Shown in pieces: positions 106-3,600 of a stretch of 37,375 nt of DNA. The stretch lies in contig JACQDF010000029.1 in assembly GCA_016201205.1 (NCBI GenBank), positions 1 to 37,375 on the forward strand. Reading direction: 5' to 3'. The stretch comes from Acidobacteriota bacterium (GTDB lineage: Bacteria; Acidobacteriota; Terriglobia; Bryobacterales; Bryobacteraceae). The position numbers were made by a program, and so were the translations under genes. The notes under the pieces are model-generated. The model was not told where the DNA came from. It was given only the letters and a program-made list of their open reading frames with translations, and searched no databases. Every line of letters begins with the position of its first letter. Position 1 is the first letter of the stretch.

Positions 106-181
106 TGGTGGGAGCGGACAGAATTGAACTGTCGTCTTCCGACTTAAAAGGACGGCGCTCTCCCGTCTGAGCTACGCTCCC
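106..181 (-). tRNA. tRNA-Lys(UUU), array member
   Basis: The cloverleaf is complete: 7-bp acceptor GGGAGCG/CGCTCCC, D arm GCTC/GAGC, T arm GACAG-TTCAATT-CTGTC, discriminator A and encoded CCA (106-108). The anticodon loop CTTTTAA gives UUU with the normal U33. The anticodon stem CCGTC/GTCGG has one T-T mismatch. A73 is usual for Lys. Confidence 0.85.
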
Positions 182-185
182 GAAG

Positions 186-229
186 TGGTACCGGGGCTGA
201 GAATCGAACATCTCACGGCCTGACTCGGC
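186..229 (-). pseudogene. tRNA 3' half (T arm, acceptor strand and CCA only)
   Basis: The minus strand shows a TTCGATT T loop, a four-pair TGAG/CTCA T stem with about three extra loop bases, a possible 3' acceptor strand CCCCGGT, discriminator A and encoded CCA (186-188). Fewer than 45 bases separate it from the next tRNA, so there is no room for D and anticodon arms. The 5' acceptor strand at 98-104 is not complementary to it, so the two do not form a split tRNA. Confidence 0.5.
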
Positions 230-301
230 TGTAGGGGTGGGACTCGAACCCACATCCTCTCGATTAACAGTCGAGCGCTGGACCAGTTCAGCTACCCTAC
301 A
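229..301 (-). tRNA. tRNA-Asn(GUU), array member
   Basis: Acceptor TGTAGGG/CCCTACA is perfectly paired. The anticodon arm CTCGA-CTGTTAA-TCGAG gives GUU with U33, and the T arm is GTGGG-TTCGAGT-CCCAC. The discriminator is G, as usual for Asn. The 3' end reads CCG instead of CCA, the only member with a clear body and an altered CCA. Confidence 0.85.
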
Positions 302-307
302 AAAAAT

Positions 308-425
308 TGGTTGGCCTGGCGAGAATCGAATTAGCTGCCTGACGGTCCGGCGCACAGGACGCTCGTCTCCGTTGTGCGCCGTAAGGAATGGCGCCGCCTG
401 CTCATCACTCATGAGCTTCAGGCCA
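308..425 (-). tRNA. Oversized tRNA-like element (about 115 nt plus CCA), isotype unclear
   Basis: The ends are tRNA-like: perfect 7-bp acceptor TGGCCTG/CAGGCCA, perfect D arm GCTC/GAGC with a 9-nt loop, a T loop TTCGATT on a poor stem (GCTAA/CTCGC), discriminator A and encoded CCA (308-310). Between D and T arms there are about 63 nt, where a class I tRNA has 22 and a class II tRNA up to about 40. That segment contains a strong hairpin, GGCGCACA pairing with TGTGCGCC, and a possible anticodon stem GCGCC/GGCGC closing a 9-nt loop with TTCCTTA. It could be a class II tRNA with a giant variable arm, a tRNA with an insertion, or a fusion of two genes. No anticodon can be assigned with confidence. 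Confidence 0.45.
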
Positions 426-431
426 ATGGCA

Positions 432-508
432 TGGTAGCGATGGCGGGATTCGAACCCGCGATAACCCGCTTGAAGGGCGGGTGACTTAGCCAACTTGTCC
501 ACATCGCC
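432..508 (-). tRNA. tRNA-Glu(UUC), array member with C33
   Basis: Acceptor GGCGATG/CATCGCT closes with a G-U pair. The D arm is GAC/GTC, the T arm GCGGG-TTCGAAT-CCCGC, and CCA is encoded. The anticodon stem CCCGC/GCGGG is perfect, and its loop CCTTCAA places UUC at 34-36 with C at 33. The discriminator is A, where bacterial Glu usually has G. Confidence 0.8.
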
Positions 509-516
509 AAAAAGTT

Positions 517-591
517 TGGCGGAGCGTACGAGAATCGAACTCGCCTAAACCCGGTAGACAGCCGGGCACCTCGCCAGTCGGTCTACGCTCC
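517..591 (-). tRNA. tRNA-Asp(GUC), array member
   Basis: Acceptor GGAGCGT/ACGCTCC, anticodon arm CCCGG-CTGTCTA-CCGGG (GUC, U33) and T arm GCGAG-TTCGATT-CTCGT with one G-U pair. Discriminator G (normal for Asp) and CCA are encoded. Position 37 is U, where a purine is expected. Confidence 0.85.
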
Positions 592-622
592 GCAATACCC
601 TGGTCGGACGACGAGCCGGAAA

Positions 623-700
623 TGGTACGGGCGGGAGGATTTGAACCTCCAAGTCTCCCGGTTCGTAGCCGGGTATCCTCATCCGTTGAACGACGCCCGC
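623..700 (-). tRNA. tRNA-Arg(ACG), array member
   Basis: Acceptor GCGGGCG/CGCCCGT, anticodon arm CCCGG-CTACGAA-CCGGG (ACG, read as ICG if edited by TadA) with U33. The T arm is GGAGG-TTCAAAT-CCTCC, with discriminator A and encoded CCA. The D arm pairs poorly. Confidence 0.85.
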
Positions 701-719
701 GTGAAAACTTCCCAGTGAA

Positions 720-794
720 TGGGGTGACCGGAGAGAATCGAACTCTCGTGGAGCGATCCACAGTCGCACGCCTAAGCCACTCGGCCACGGTCAC
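720..794 (-). tRNA. tRNA-His(GUG)-like, array member
   Basis: Acceptor GTGACCG/CGGTCAC, T arm GAGAG-TTCGATT-CTCTC and encoded CCA. The anticodon loop CTGTGGA gives GUG with U33, and the discriminator is C, the His signature. The D arm (GCCGAGTGGCTTAGGC) resembles that of class II tRNAs, but the variable loop is short. The genomic base before position 1 is T, so the usual encoded G-1 of bacterial tRNA-His is absent. One anticodon-stem pair is mismatched. Confidence 0.7.
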
Positions 795-797
795 AGT

Positions 798-873
798 TGG
801 TGCCAGGAGCACGAGTCGAACGTGCTTGTCCAGCTTTTCAGACTGGCGCCTTGACCGCAACGGCCTCCCTGGC
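798..873 (-). tRNA. tRNA-Phe(GAA), array member
   Basis: Acceptor GCCAGGG/TCCTGGC, anticodon arm CCAGT-CTGAAAA-GCTGG (GAA, U33, closing U-G pair) and T arm GCACG-TTCGACT-CGTGC. Discriminator A and CCA are encoded. Confidence 0.85.
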
Positions 874-878
874 GAATT

Positions 879-952
879 TGGTGGAAGAGGAGGGAATCGA
901 ACCCTCATTTGCTGGTTGCAGGCCAGCGGTCCTCCCGTTGAACGACTCCCCC
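879..952 (-). tRNA. tRNA-Ala(UGC), array member with C33 and G3:U70
   Basis: Acceptor GGGGGAG/CTCTTCC contains the G3:U70 wobble that identifies tRNA-Ala to alanyl-tRNA synthetase, with discriminator A and encoded CCA. The anticodon stem GCTGG/CCAGC is perfect, and its loop CCTGCAA places UGC at 34-36 with C at 33. The T arm is GAGGG-TTCGATT-CCCTC. Reading the anticodon as GCA (Cys) would break the 7-nt loop, so Ala is preferred. Confidence 0.8.
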
Positions 953-960
953 AATAGAAT

Positions 961-1035
961 TGGTTGCGGGCTGGCGAGTTGAACGCCACTCGCATGGCTT
1001 ATGAGGCCAGCATGACACCGGTTCACTTGCCCGCA
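961..1035 (-). tRNA. tRNA-Met(CAU), array member
   Basis: Acceptor TGCGGGC/GCCCGCA is fully paired, so it lacks the 1:72 mismatch of bacterial initiators. The anticodon loop CTCATAA gives CAU with U33, and the stem CTGGC/GCCAT has one mismatch. The T arm is TGGCG-TTCAACT-CGCCA, with discriminator A and encoded CCA. It could be elongator Met or a lysidine-modified Ile; these cannot be separated here. Confidence 0.8.
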
Positions 1036-1044
1036 TTGAAAATC

Positions 1045-1122
1045 TGGTCCGGGAAGCTGGGGTCGAACCAGCGGCCTCTCGATTATCGATCGAGTGCTCA
1101 AACCGCGCTGAGCTTTTCCCGG
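1045..1122 (-). tRNA. tRNA-Ile(GAU), array member with C33
   Basis: Acceptor CCGGGAA/TTCCCGG, D arm GCTC/GAGC and T arm GCTGG-TTCGACC-CCAGC. Discriminator A and CCA are encoded. The anticodon stem CTCGA/TCGAG is perfect, and the loop TCGATAA gives GAU with bases 32-33 as TC instead of the usual CT. Confidence 0.8.
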
Positions 1123-1142
1123 ATGCCGAATGTACGAAAACG

Positions 1143-1217
1143 TGGAGCCCTGTGTTATATTTGAACTGACTTTTCCGGATTACAGGTCCGGCGCATCGCC
1201 ATCTATGCTTACAGGGC
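1143..1217 (-). tRNA. tRNA-Thr(UGU), array member with C33
   Basis: Acceptor GCCCTGT/ACAGGGC and D arm GCAT/ATGC. The anticodon stem CCGGA/TCCGG is perfect, with loop CCTGTAA (UGU, C33). Discriminator T and CCA are encoded; the canonical tRNA-Thr at 2765 also has T73. The T stem GTCAG/ATAAC has two mismatches. Confidence 0.7.
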
Positions 1218-1226
1218 TCGTGATTC

Positions 1227-1302
1227 TGGAGCCAGAGGGGGTATTCGAAACCCCGACCTCAGCGTTACGAGTGCGGTGCTCTTCCACTTGAGCTACTCCG
1301 AT
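1227..1302 (-). tRNA. tRNA-Thr(CGU)-like, divergent array copy
   Basis: D arm GCTC/GAGC, T arm GGGGT-TTCGAAT-ACCCC, loop CTCGTAA (CGU, U33), discriminator T and encoded CCA. The acceptor ATCGGAG/CTCTGGC has an A1:C72 mismatch, and the anticodon stem CCGCA/CGCTG has two mismatches. It has the same anticodon as the canonical gene at 2765 but a different body. Confidence 0.65.
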
Positions 1303-1375
1303 GGAGCGAGTGCGGAGAATCGAACTCCGTTGATCGGACTGGCGATCCGATGCCCAACCAATAGGCCACACCCGC
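1302..1375 (-). tRNA. tRNA-Gly(GCC), array member with C33
   Basis: Acceptor GCGGGTG/CACTCGC, T arm CGGAG-TTCGATT-CTCCG, discriminator T (normal for Gly) and encoded CCA. The anticodon stem TCGGA/TCCGA is perfect, with loop TCGCCAG (GCC, C33). Its last CCA base overlaps the first base of the next array gene, so the two genes abut with no spacer. Confidence 0.8.
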
Positions 1376-1404
1376 TCGTTTGCACCTCTGTGATGCTATT
1401 CAAT

Positions 1405-1415
1405 TGTCAAAGATC
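1405..1415 (-). promoter_or_regulatory. boxA-like antitermination motif in the leader of array block 1
   Basis: The minus strand reads GATCTTTGACA about 30 nt before the first tRNA of the block. It resembles boxA (TGCTCTTTAACA), the NusB/S10 site found in leaders of rRNA and other stable-RNA operons. It contains TTGACA, but no -10 box is seen at the right distance, so a regulatory RNA site fits better than a -35 box. Confidence 0.3.
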
Positions 1416-1495
1416 TGCTCTGAGGTACACTTCTAATGCCTCGCTTGCAACCGAAAGCAAGTTAGACAAAATGTCCCAGAATACCGATAAACAAG

Positions 1496-1531
1496 AAAAA
1501 GAGGGCGGCCATTTTTGGTGGCCGCCCTCTT
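1496..1531 (-). terminator. Rho-independent terminator of array block 2
   Basis: The 10-bp GC-rich stem 1501-1510/1520-1529 (extendable by two A-T pairs) has a 9-nt loop and is followed on the minus strand by TTTTTCTTG. It lies about 225 nt beyond tRNA-Ser(CGA), so it would end a transcript coming from block 2 and make the two blocks separate transcription units. Confidence 0.8.
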
Positions 1532-1753
1532 CTTGAAACCGGTATGCTATTCCAAGACGGTTAGGTCACCGCGCGCGCATCATGATTCATGCGCCTCTGC
1601 GTACCTTTGACTTCGGTCCCGAATTGGAATACGTGTGTCACGCAGTTACATGTTAAACTACTTTTCTTAAGAGTTCAAGAGTCTTAATGAACTCTTCACA
1701 TTCTTCACATTCGGTTCTCCGGATTCGGCGCATCCCACAGCTCTACATCAGAT

Positions 1754-1846
1754 TGGCGGAGGAGGAGGGAATTCAACCCTCGGTGGCCCTTGCGGACTCA
1801 CGCCAGTTTTCGGGACTGGTGACTTTAGCAGCTCGTCCACTCCTCC
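1754..1846 (-). tRNA. tRNA-Ser(CGA), array member with C33
   Basis: Class II tRNA: acceptor GGAGGAG/CTCCTCC, long variable arm, T arm GAGGG-TTGAATT-CCCTC, discriminator G (Ser) and encoded CCA. The anticodon stem CCAGT/ACTGG is perfect, with loop CCCGAAA (CGA, C33). The T loop has TTGAA, not TTCGA or TTCAA, so C56 is replaced. Confidence 0.8.
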
Positions 1847-1859
1847 GTGCGAAAAAACT

Positions 1860-1934
1860 TGGAGCGCCGCCGCGGATTTGAACCGCGCACACCGAGTTTG
1901 CAGCTCGGCCGCTCACCACTTGCTGTTGCGGCGC
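1860..1934 (-). tRNA. tRNA-Cys(GCA), array member
   Basis: Acceptor GCGCCGC/GCGGCGC, anticodon arm CCGAG-CTGCAAA-CTCGG (GCA, U33) and T arm CGCGG-TTCAAAT-CCGCG. Discriminator T, the Cys identity base, and CCA are encoded. Confidence 0.85.
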
Positions 1935-1935
1935 A

Positions 1936-2009
1936 TGGCGCCCCGGGGGTGATTCGAACACCCAATGGCGGGTTTGGAATCCGCTGGCCTCACCATCGGC
2001 AACCGGGGC
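1936..2009 (-). tRNA. tRNA-Trp(CCA), array member
   Basis: Acceptor GCCCCGG/CCGGGGC, loop TTCCAAA (CCA, U33), T arm GGGTG-TTCGAAT-CACCC, discriminator G (normal for Trp) and encoded CCA. The loop-closing pair of the anticodon stem is A-C. Confidence 0.85.
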
Positions 2010-2042
2010 GTGTGGTGCCCAAACGCGAATTTTCAAAGATCT

Positions 2043-2127
2043 GGCGGAAGGCAGGCGACTCGAACGCCTATGTCCCGAGGGACCCTGGCTTAGCAGACCG
2101 GTGGGATACCAATTACCCGAGCCTTCC
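2043..2127 (-). tRNA. tRNA-Ser(GCU), array member
   Basis: Class II tRNA: acceptor GGAAGGC/GCCTTCC, variable arm with a GTCCC/GGGAC stem, T arm AGGCG-TTCGAGT-CGCCT, loop CTGCTAA (GCU, U33), discriminator G and encoded CCA. One anticodon-stem pair is mismatched. It is the promoter-proximal gene of block 2. Confidence 0.85.
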
Positions 2128-2764: not shown

Positions 2765-2840
2765 TGGAGCCACCCGCAGGGATCGAACCGGCGACCTGCT
2801 GATTACGAATCAGCCGCTCTACCAACTGAGCTAGGGTGGC
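2765..2840 (-). tRNA. tRNA-Thr(CGU), canonical
   Basis: All arms pair well: acceptor GCCACCC/GGGTGGC (with G-U closure where needed), D arm GCTC/GAGC, anticodon loop TTCGTAA (CGU, U33) on a GCTGA/TCAGC stem, a T loop TTCGATC, discriminator T and encoded CCA. It differs clearly in quality from the array genes. It stands alone with its own promoter and lies with its 3' end facing the array. Confidence 0.95.
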
Positions 2841-3097: not shown

Positions 3098-3120
3098 AGT
3101 ATACTCCAATGGAGTATACT
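3098..3120. promoter_or_regulatory. Perfect 23-bp operator of the HigBA-like module
   Basis: AGTATACTCC, spacer AAT, then GGAGTATACT: both arms are perfectly complementary. The left arm contains TATACT, a good -10 box, and the site overlaps the ATG at 3109. In type II toxin-antitoxin loci such palindromes bind the antitoxin for autorepression. The position suggests the toxin may really begin at GTG 3127, downstream of the operator. Confidence 0.75.
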
Positions 3121-3299
3121 GAACTCGTGCAGACCGTCGTGGAGACCCCAGCGTTCCTCGCCGATGCACGCTCCTTGGGACTGTCAGAAGCGGAGCGCCT
3201 TGCTATCGTGACGTGGATTGCTGGCAACCCGGCGGCTGGTGACGTAATCGAAGGAACGGGCGGTGGTCAAGACTTACAGGTCTGGAAGGGAATCGAGAT
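3109..3299 (+). pseudogene. Truncated RelE/HigB-like toxin (internal deletion)
   Basis: The first part (TVVETPAFLADAR..LGLSEAER..IAGNPAAGDVIEGTGG, about 53 residues) matches the N-terminal half of RelE/HigB-type (Gp49-like) toxins, normally about 110-120 residues. The following bases make sense in another frame as a toxin C-terminus (KTYRSGRESR, then TGA overlapping the antitoxin ATG). A deletion of about half the gene therefore joined the two ends out of frame, leaving one open frame that runs into the antitoxin. The catalytic C-terminal strands are missing, so toxicity is unlikely. Confidence 0.7.
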
Positions 3300-3600
3300 G
3301 AAGAAGAGGAAACCAACGGCGGGCGAACGAATGATCGAGAGCGCCAGACAAGCGCTCGCTTTCGCCAAGGGCAAGGAAAACCACGGGTGTGAGGTACACG
3401 TCCCGGAGGATATCGACGTCAAGGCGATCAGGGAGAAGATCGCTCTTTCTCAAAGCGAGTTTGCCAAGTTGTTCGGTTTGAGCAAACGGACTTTGGAACA
3501 TTGGGAGCACGGGCGGCGAGTCCCCAGCGGCCCCGCGCGAGCGTTCCTGACAGTAATCGCGCGTGAACCGGAGGCTGTTCGGCGTGCATTGCTGGCCTGA
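3298..3600 (+). CDS. HigA-like antitoxin, XRE/Cro helix-turn-helix protein
   Basis: A 100-residue protein starts at the ATG that overlaps the old toxin stop (ATGA), with GGAAGGG upstream as a possible ribosome site. Residues about 38-95 form a helix-turn-helix of the HigA/XRE type (IREKIALSQSEFAKLFGLS, then TLEHWEHGRRVPSGPARAFL), the DNA-binding part of antitoxins that repress their own operon. The N-terminal part would bind the toxin. The same frame is open upstream to 3109 because of the toxin deletion, so a 163-residue toxin-antitoxin fusion could also be made. The antitoxin has no frameshift and its operator is intact, so it may survive as a stand-alone repressor. Confidence 0.8.
   Translation: MKKRKPTAGERMIESARQALAFAKGKENHGCEVHVPEDIDVKAIREKIALSQSEFAKLFGLSKRTLEHWEHGRRVPSGPARAFLTVIAREPEAVRRALLA

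Follow-up and report, generated by a model that had tools for sequence, protein, structure and literature searches.

Cytidine at position 33 in tRNAs of an auxiliary Acidobacteriota array, its recurrence by isotype and the RNA-repair neighbors of related arrays

tRNA arrays, phage tRNAs accompanied by RNA repair and Rsr-YrlA-RtcB operons are already known. The array tRNAs of the mobile units described in Mycobacterium differ from the chromosomal ones in the D, anticodon and variable arms (PMC12803027). The Anabaena trn operon is a silent plasmid array of 26 tRNAs which is activated by translational stress, and its repressor is shared with rtcB (PMC10272220). In jumbo phages, tRNAs are accompanied by RtcB or other ligases and, in a subset, by TROVE proteins (PMC7824862). 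The locus considered here lies at the start of the 37,375-nucleotide contig JACQDF010000029.1 of an Acidobacteriota bacterium (the window, i.e., the whole stretch of DNA that was analyzed), which carries one end of an auxiliary array of additional tRNA genes. Six of its tRNAs carry a cytidine at position 33 (C33) in place of the uridine (U33) that is taught as near-universal, and such natural variants make the real role of U33 testable. The C33 observation is confirmed as real, non-random and recurrent by isotype. On the reading favored here, to which somewhat better than even confidence is attached, these are spare tRNAs of an RNA-repair island, with C33 being a tolerated variant under GC (guanine plus cytosine) pressure and weak selection.

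Position 33 in the array and in the rest of the genome

Within a 7.0-Mb genome of 392 contigs, the window is contig C28, and its array places 17 tRNAs within 2.0 kb, the close packing expected of a tRNA array unit. The array and its C33 genes are:

106..2127, minus strand: tRNA array, 16 genes by ARAGORN plus Thr(UGU) by Rfam; truncated, the contig starting inside the array
432..508, minus strand: tRNA-Glu(UUC), loop CCUUCAA, C33; ARAGORN; Rfam, 63.2 bits
879..952, minus strand: tRNA-Ala(UGC), loop CCUGCAA, C33; ARAGORN; Rfam, 53.2 bits
1045..1122, minus strand: tRNA-Ile(GAU), loop UCGAUAA, C33; ARAGORN; Rfam, 57.3 bits
1143..1217, minus strand: tRNA-Thr(UGU), loop CCUGUAA, C33; Rfam, 37.4 bits (cut-off 29), missed by ARAGORN
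1302..1375, minus strand: tRNA-Gly(GCC), loop UCGCCAG, C33; ARAGORN; Rfam, 50.4 bits
1754..1846, minus strand: tRNA-Ser(CGA), loop CCCGAAA, C33; ARAGORN; Rfam, 44.1 bits

A first-pass annotation had reported six C33 tRNAs with perfect 5-bp anticodon stems and 7-nt loops, and all six were recovered by ARAGORN or Rfam, each with 5/5 anticodon-stem pairs and a loop of 7 nt. The acceptor and T stems are complete in five of them, while Thr(UGU) has 7/7 acceptor pairs and merely 3/5 pairs in the T stem. The remaining 11 of the 17 array tRNAs have U33; a C33 call in the array Trp proved false, as one ARAGORN run had placed the loop one base off and the realigned gene has U33. Outside the array, none of the 35 tRNAs found in the genome has C33 and all have U33 (ARAGORN count, including the Thr(CGU) at 2765-2840), which gives 6/17 versus 0/35 (one-sided p = 6e-4). 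Ala(UGC) and Ile(GAU) were not found among the 35, perhaps owing to the absence of rRNA operons from the draft, and two of the six C33 tRNAs are thus without a canonical counterpart. The array DNA resembles the 35 other tRNAs weakly, as expected of an additional and divergent set of the array-unit type, and the scores of its tRNAs tend to be lower than those of the genome's other tRNAs.

Recurrence by isotype and relation to GC content

When used as a query against 61 genomes, the array gave matches in 28, mostly of single-tRNA size, and one genome contig (G014:C559) matched it over long stretches (78% and 72%). The array on this contig carries C33 in Ala, Thr(UGU), Gly(GCC) and Gly(UCC), and that of G019 in Glu(UUC), Val(UAC) and Ile(GAU), along with one doubtful Ala. 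Of the isotypes with C33 in the window, Ala, Thr and Gly(GCC) recur in G014, Glu in G019, Ile in G019, G097 and G299, and Ser(CGA) in G088 and G102. As the same isotypes have C33 in other assemblies, an error of sequencing or of the present assembly is out as its source. A BLAST search of the whole array against plasmids and phages returned short matches only, covering at most 5% of the query among the matches listed.

Further arrays were fetched from 200 family genomes and 297 phylum genomes by means of patterns containing C33, and the sample is accordingly biased toward C33. The patterns match non-tRNA DNA too, as well as Phe, Cys and Ser genes with U33; the matches were sorted by ARAGORN for loci L091-L149 only, and those used from the family genomes are the ones listed, not all. 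Left out of the counts were ARAGORN ??? calls, the artefacts L155:9173 and L156:8868, the flanking Pro gene of L161 and the Thr gene that starts at 2765 in the window. Across 14 Acidobacteriota arrays with 243 tRNAs, including the hand-added Thr(UGU), position 33 is U in 202, C in 40, G in one and A in none, a C33 rate that is inflated by the mode of fetching, with some offset from C33 Val genes which ARAGORN missed and the pattern matched in L154, L155 and L156. The number per array ranges from 0 (L155, L156, L161, L162) to 6 (the window, L151). By isotype, C33 was found in Val(UAC) (5/5), Ile(GAU) (5/6), Ala (8/11), Ser(CGA) (2/2), Gly(GCC) (4/10), Gly(UCC) (2/7), Glu(UUC) (3/8) and Thr(UGU) (3/8), with single cases in each of several other isotypes and none in the Lys (20), Asn (13), Phe (10), Met (10) and Gln (15) tRNAs of the 14 arrays. 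An array from another family (G357) has C33 in 6/31 tRNAs, one of them a Lys(UUU); therefore, no isotype is absolutely exempt.

C-to-U editing of tRNAs exists elsewhere, and the presence of C, almost never A or G, at position 33 would fit an editing of C33 to U after transcription, the mature tRNA then being ordinary. However, no deaminase family was detected in 20 scanned proteins, not all of them array neighbors, and editing leaves both the isotype bias and the spread across unrelated phyla and phages unexplained. This explanation is accorded hardly any weight.

The phage and plasmid data extend the same bias. Ten plasmid or phage loci similar to the array have 6 C33 in 192 tRNAs, namely Val(GAC) three times, Ile(GAU), Leu(GAG) and Pro(GGG). 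An unbiased viral set was assembled from contigs picked by a U33 Asn or Lys pattern, regardless of C33, after removal of the two ascertained isotypes, Asn(GUU) and Lys(UUU), of repeated sequences and of stems with fewer than four pairs; like the species-genome scan described below, such pattern-based scans are samples among the matches listed. Its 1,304 tRNAs have U in 1,265, C in 36, G in two and A in one, and C33 occurs in Ile(GAU) (11/48), Val(GAC) (4/9) and Val(UAC) (4/42). The frequency of C33 climbs across the GC bins of these contigs (3/131, 11/800, 12/272, 10/100; trend p = 8e-6), as it does for Ile(GAU) and Val(GAC, UAC) pooled (1/7, 6/63, 7/21, 5/8; trend p = 3e-4). No difference from the Acidobacteriota arrays (40/242) was seen for the phage contigs of GC 0.55-0.65 (10/100; p = 0.13). 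In viral contigs picked for a C33 Val(UAC), 102 of 1,470 other tRNAs have C33, the ascertained Val(UAC) and stems of fewer than four pairs again being left out. Six cyanobacterial plasmid loci have C33 in 4/101 tRNAs, two of these calls being doubtful, and their Val(UAC) has C33 in one case and U33 in three. Over the data sets, Ile(GAU) and Val show C33 most often, and it is seldom or never seen in Lys, Asn, Asp, His, Phe, Gln and Arg.

This distribution bears on the main rival, a possible though unlikely one, in which C33 was selected because it shields the array tRNAs from toxins that cleave tRNA or from defence nucleases, enzymes recognizing the U33 side of the loop, the array replacing cut tRNAs and RtcB and Ro60 repairing or clearing the fragments. 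Known anticodon nucleases include ones that target Lys, Tyr, Asn, His, Asp and Arg tRNAs. These isotypes mostly have U33 here, and the frequency of C33 tracks GC. Additionally, C33 is present in canonical clostridial Val(UAC), varies between related cyanobacterial arrays and, if anything, accompanies slightly greater degeneracy at other sites. The first-pass annotation had proposed looking for an anticodon nuclease in the genome: there are 38 PIN-domain (VapC-like) matches above the cut-off, which favor evasion, and no AAA_13 (PrrC/RloC-type) match, which does not. In its favor are also the RNA-repair genes in or adjoining related arrays, the precedent of phage tRNAs with anticodon-loop changes (PMC10264068) and the induction of the rsr-yrlBA-rtcBA operon by tRNAs that have been cleaved in their anticodon loop (PMC7790460); however, for another phage evasion was deemed unlikely by the authors (PMC12482277). 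Thus, the idea of a defence against nucleases holds insofar as the setting is one of response to damage (RtcB and Ro60 with related arrays, and YrlA at two of the Ro60 loci checked), whereas resistance through C33 itself is unsupported by either isotypes or GC.

Conservation, decay and decoding

The other tRNA genes of the array, its spacer and an adjoining tRNA gene are:

106-181, minus strand: tRNA-Lys(UUU), U33; ARAGORN
227-301, minus strand: tRNA-Asn(GUU), U33; ARAGORN
517..873, minus strand: tRNAs Asp(GUC), Arg(ACG), His(GUG) and Phe(GAA), U33; ARAGORN
961..1035, minus strand: tRNA-Met(CAU), U33; ARAGORN
1227..1302, minus strand: tRNA-Thr(CGU), U33, anticodon stem only 3/5; ARAGORN
1376..1753, minus strand: spacer within the array, mostly aligning at ~72-80% to other arrays
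1860..2127, minus strand: tRNAs Cys(GCA), Trp(CCA) and Ser(GCU), U33; ARAGORN
2765..2840, minus strand: canonical-looking tRNA-Thr(CGU), U33, adjoining the array; ARAGORN

The array could be a decaying relic with C33 as a product of simple decay. It does hold, by our own reading of the alignment, the 3' half of a Val-like tRNA at ~182-226 and a broken tRNA gene at ~302-431, where G014 has a Lys(CUU), and the lower scores of its tRNAs as a tendency point the same way. The C33 tRNAs lose more of ten invariant sites than the U33 tRNAs (mean 1.38 versus 1.00, p = 0.08) and are worse at 7/10 of the other invariant sites, a slightly higher degeneracy which fits weaker selection. However, the anticodon stem is 5/5 in all six window C33 genes as opposed to 5/11 of the U33 array genes, 242 of the 243 array tRNAs have a U or a C at position 33, and the covariance-model scores of array tRNAs with C33 and with U33 overlap. 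Substitutions at other invariant sites are to several bases, U8 being lost in 58/243 (mostly to A), A14 in 38 and A21 in 87, although these losses, read at fixed offsets, are upper bounds and include some misalignments. Further, the window and G014 share 12 orthologous tRNA pairs with 87-100% identity, higher than the 72-78% of the two long array stretches, and the tRNAs are therefore under selection; Thr(CGU) is without a true partner among these pairs. Simple decay was judged an improbable source of C33, despite the two broken members, the damaged T stem of Thr(UGU) and the extra degeneracy. The first-pass annotation's contention that C33 is not random decay is thus upheld by its recurrence by isotype in other arrays, the change almost only to C and the intact stems.

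Position 33 is identical in 11 of the 12 window-G014 pairs, the exception being Glu, with UUC and C33 here and CUC and U33 there. As C33 is common to orthologous tRNAs of related arrays, it does not represent six recent events in this genome, and of the earlier notion of six independent changes the recurrence in several isotypes is supported and the independence is not. Likewise, the expected conservation of C33 in homologous arrays is seen in these pairs and fails among related arrays at large, where U and C vary; this variation goes with anticodon stems that are mostly intact, and not with the broken stems which the first-pass annotation had coupled to a freely varying position 33.

A C33 Val(UAC) pattern run over 84,980 species genomes matched at least 118 stretches, many of the listed ones being short clusters, e.g., Val-Asp-Phe-Gly-Cys, in genomes labelled Clostridia. 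Among 25 mostly clostridial genomes picked from the matches listed, the C33 pattern matches in all 25 (G525 doubtfully), and 17 have a C33 Val(UAC) with no U33 Val(UAC) by pattern. Similarly, G100 (100% complete, same family) carries a C33 form of Gly(UCC) and, by pattern, none with U33, and the same holds by pattern for Glu(UUC) in G485 (96% complete); the patterns used require an encoded CCA and a standard T arm. As C33 is found in what are by pattern the sole Val(UAC) or Gly(UCC) tRNAs, decoding is likely, not certain, and from these sequences the C33 tRNAs probably still decode. Chromosomal-looking C33 Val(UAC) genes occur at L181-L183, L217, L225, L290 and similar loci, those other than L290 being labelled Clostridia, Tenericutes or Bacillales, and L217 and L290 also have an Ala(UGC) with C33.

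The first-pass annotation had also offered a role outside translation, in which the C33 tRNAs would be charged but poor decoders, used off the ribosome either as decoys or for aminoacylating cell wall, lipids or peptides. In its favor, U33 has been called critical for cognate decoding (PMC12202706), and ochre suppression by a yeast tRNA is abolished by U33C (PMC11096365). However, the sole Val(UAC), Gly(UCC) and Glu(UUC) tRNAs, by pattern, carry C33 in some genomes, and no aminoacyl-transfer family was detected in the 20 scanned proteins. To our knowledge, the isotype set of Val, Ile, Ala, Gly, Thr, Ser and Glu matches no single known pathway. Such a role is hence considered very improbable.

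Some structural latitude can be envisaged for the loop. C-initial loops can make a U-turn if the C is protonated (PMC5311481), and the 2'-OH of residue 33 bonds to N7 of a purine at position 35 (PMC5372741). A purine at 35 is associated with C33 overall in three data sets, the effect in the arrays being weak (odds ratio 1.9, p 0.10), and is retained as a weak idea for the reason behind the isotype bias.

Several further features of the window may be noted. The adjoining Thr(CGU) at 2765-2840 is a possible integration point of the array; a family scan of the two window proteins nearest the array, which lies at the contig edge, yielded no integrase. A helix-turn-helix protein at 3109-3600 beside the array has a weak MqsA-antitoxin likeness, below the family cut-off. 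A GC-rich inverted repeat followed by a T run was spotted by eye at ~1490-1540 in the array spacer, and two motifs (gatctttganaatt), which we take to be boxA-like, lie on the minus strand at 1402-1415 and 2028-2041, ahead of array tRNA runs; the motifs and the hairpin with its T's are possible antitermination and terminator signals. Positions 1-60 are repeated at 88-95% identity on three G006 contigs, near the end of two, and may be the repeat that broke the assembly.

RNA-repair neighbors and comparison with known systems

Related arrays contain or adjoin genes for proteins that match RtcB (L150, L076, L163), Ro60/TROVE (L076, L154, L163, L151) and HNH nuclease (L076, L157, L163), and a tyrosine integrase lies beside the related array L156. 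Among 15 genomes checked for repair genes, chosen since most had arrays, Ro60 is matched in 8 and RtcB in 12, and one or both lie in or adjoining tRNAs in 10. Four of them (G002, G101, G153, G405) have on one contig the order tRNA(s), Ro60, RtcB; in G299 and G019 the array is accompanied by both genes, in G357, G373 and G088 by RtcB and in G102 by Ro60. Neither is found on the array contig of G014, G097, G141, G142 or the window's own genome. The latter does possess a Ro60 (Rsr) at C104:6695-8116, which shares 86% identity with the Ro60 linked to the array in G153 and has a YrlA next to it (L657:6374-6493 on contig C104; 70.6 bits against a gathering score of 69), and its RtcB matches sit on C287, apart from Ro60-YrlA. 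By the order Lys, Arg, Ro60 of G153, this Ro60 end of C104 could continue the window array. In G002, of the same genus, the YrlA beside Ro60 scores 70.9 bits. YrlA stays below the gathering score in five viral Ro60 loci, one of which has tRNAs, 20 of them around the Ro60 relative, including a C33 Val(GAC) (L664, a 183-kb IMG/VR contig). Two stretches illustrate these arrangements: L657:6374-8272, at the end of contig C104, with an open Ro60 gene and YrlA, orthologous to the Ro60 flanking the relatives' arrays, and L658:237-4980 (G002:C230), with a C33 Asp tRNA, Ro60, YrlA and RtcB in a row near the contig start.

In the relatives, such arrays often form one locus with the RtcB ligase and Ro60/Rsr, and sometimes with the YrlA Y RNA or an HNH nuclease. 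On the favored reading of spare tRNAs with a tolerated C33, and by analogy with known relatives, the array would supply replacement tRNAs upon cleavage of host tRNAs or translation stress. C33, as the exchange of a pyrimidine for a pyrimidine, would leave the tRNA able to decode, and in the weakly selected array tRNAs of GC-rich elements U33 could drift to C, mostly in isotypes with a tolerant anticodon loop (Val, Ile-GAU, Ala and some Gly, Glu, Thr and Ser). The array tRNAs are presumed to be expressed and to decode at a low fitness cost, and the array may be physically linked to Ro60 in its own genome.

Several observations weigh against this reading. As 11 of the 14 arrays were fetched via C33 patterns, their 16.5% C33 is inflated and the 5/5 for Val is circular. 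Taken singly, neither Ile(GAU) (p = 0.2) nor Val (p = 0.051) shows a significant GC difference, and the p-values are optimistic because the sequences are related. Position 33 is lost in 41/243 array tRNAs, oftener than the T-arm invariants (5 to 13 of 231). Sole-copy status was judged by exact patterns run on draft genomes, and drift alone leaves C33 in canonical clostridial Val(UAC), at GC 0.30-0.58 (20 loci), unexplained. The purine-35 effect is gone in the unbiased phage set without Ile and Val (8/576 versus 9/626), and Glu-UUC and Gly-GCC carry C33 yet have a pyrimidine at 35. U33C mutants function badly in yeast (PMC11096365, PMC3664417). Finally, YrlA is below the gathering score in L151, L154 and L163, and the first 20-60 bases of the window are absent from C104, the link between array and Ro60 not being assembled.

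The same neighbors can be combined with selection in a more tentative proposal, for which the likelihood is rated low: a chromosomal tRNA-insurance locus of Acidobacteriota with silent spare tRNAs and RtcB-Ro60-YrlA directed against tRNA-cutting toxins, in which C33 would be selected to hide chosen tRNAs from nucleases or to reduce their competition with the ordinary tRNAs, with decoding retained.

A search of mainly open literature, largely outside the subscription journals and no proof of absence from print, found neither C33 by isotype nor Acidobacteriota tRNA arrays with Ro60 and RtcB. The texts consulted on C33 treat eukaryotic initiator tRNA and engineered mutants. A term search of PMC5966550 and PMC12803027 met no statement on position 33, and the searched text of PMC10264068 does not mention U33 or position 33.

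In comparative terms, the array resembles the Mycobacterium mobile tRNA array units (PMC5966550, PMC12803027) in being a dense extra set for many amino acids, a type found on plasmids, phages and chromosomes, but differs in that Acidobacteriota arrays are joined to RtcB and Ro60. The Anabaena system is comparable in that related Nostoc arrays, fetched for C33, have a C33 Val(UAC); however, its rtcB is a separate chromosomal gene (PMC10272220), and few tRNAs of the six cyanobacterial plasmid arrays considered above have C33. The phage tRNAs proposed to evade nucleases (PMC10264068) likewise are extra tRNAs with altered anticodon loops, but their changes were matched to ones known to affect VapC cleavage, whereas no nuclease is matched here. 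As in the rsr-yrlBA-rtcBA operon (PMC7790460), Ro60 (Rsr), YrlA and RtcB form one block in G002:C230, though the Acidobacteriota block is attached to tRNA genes. The jumbo-phage modules (PMC7824862) find a parallel in the 183-kb viral contig L664, with its 20 tRNAs around a Ro60 relative and its C33 Val(GAC), but the present locus lies in bacterial genome assemblies and in tight arrays. C33 recurs in a few isotypes of bacterial arrays and phages and, by pattern, in the sole Val(UAC) of many clostridial genomes, and the Acidobacteriota arrays, with Ro60, RtcB and in places YrlA, join known pieces into one proposed answer to tRNA damage.

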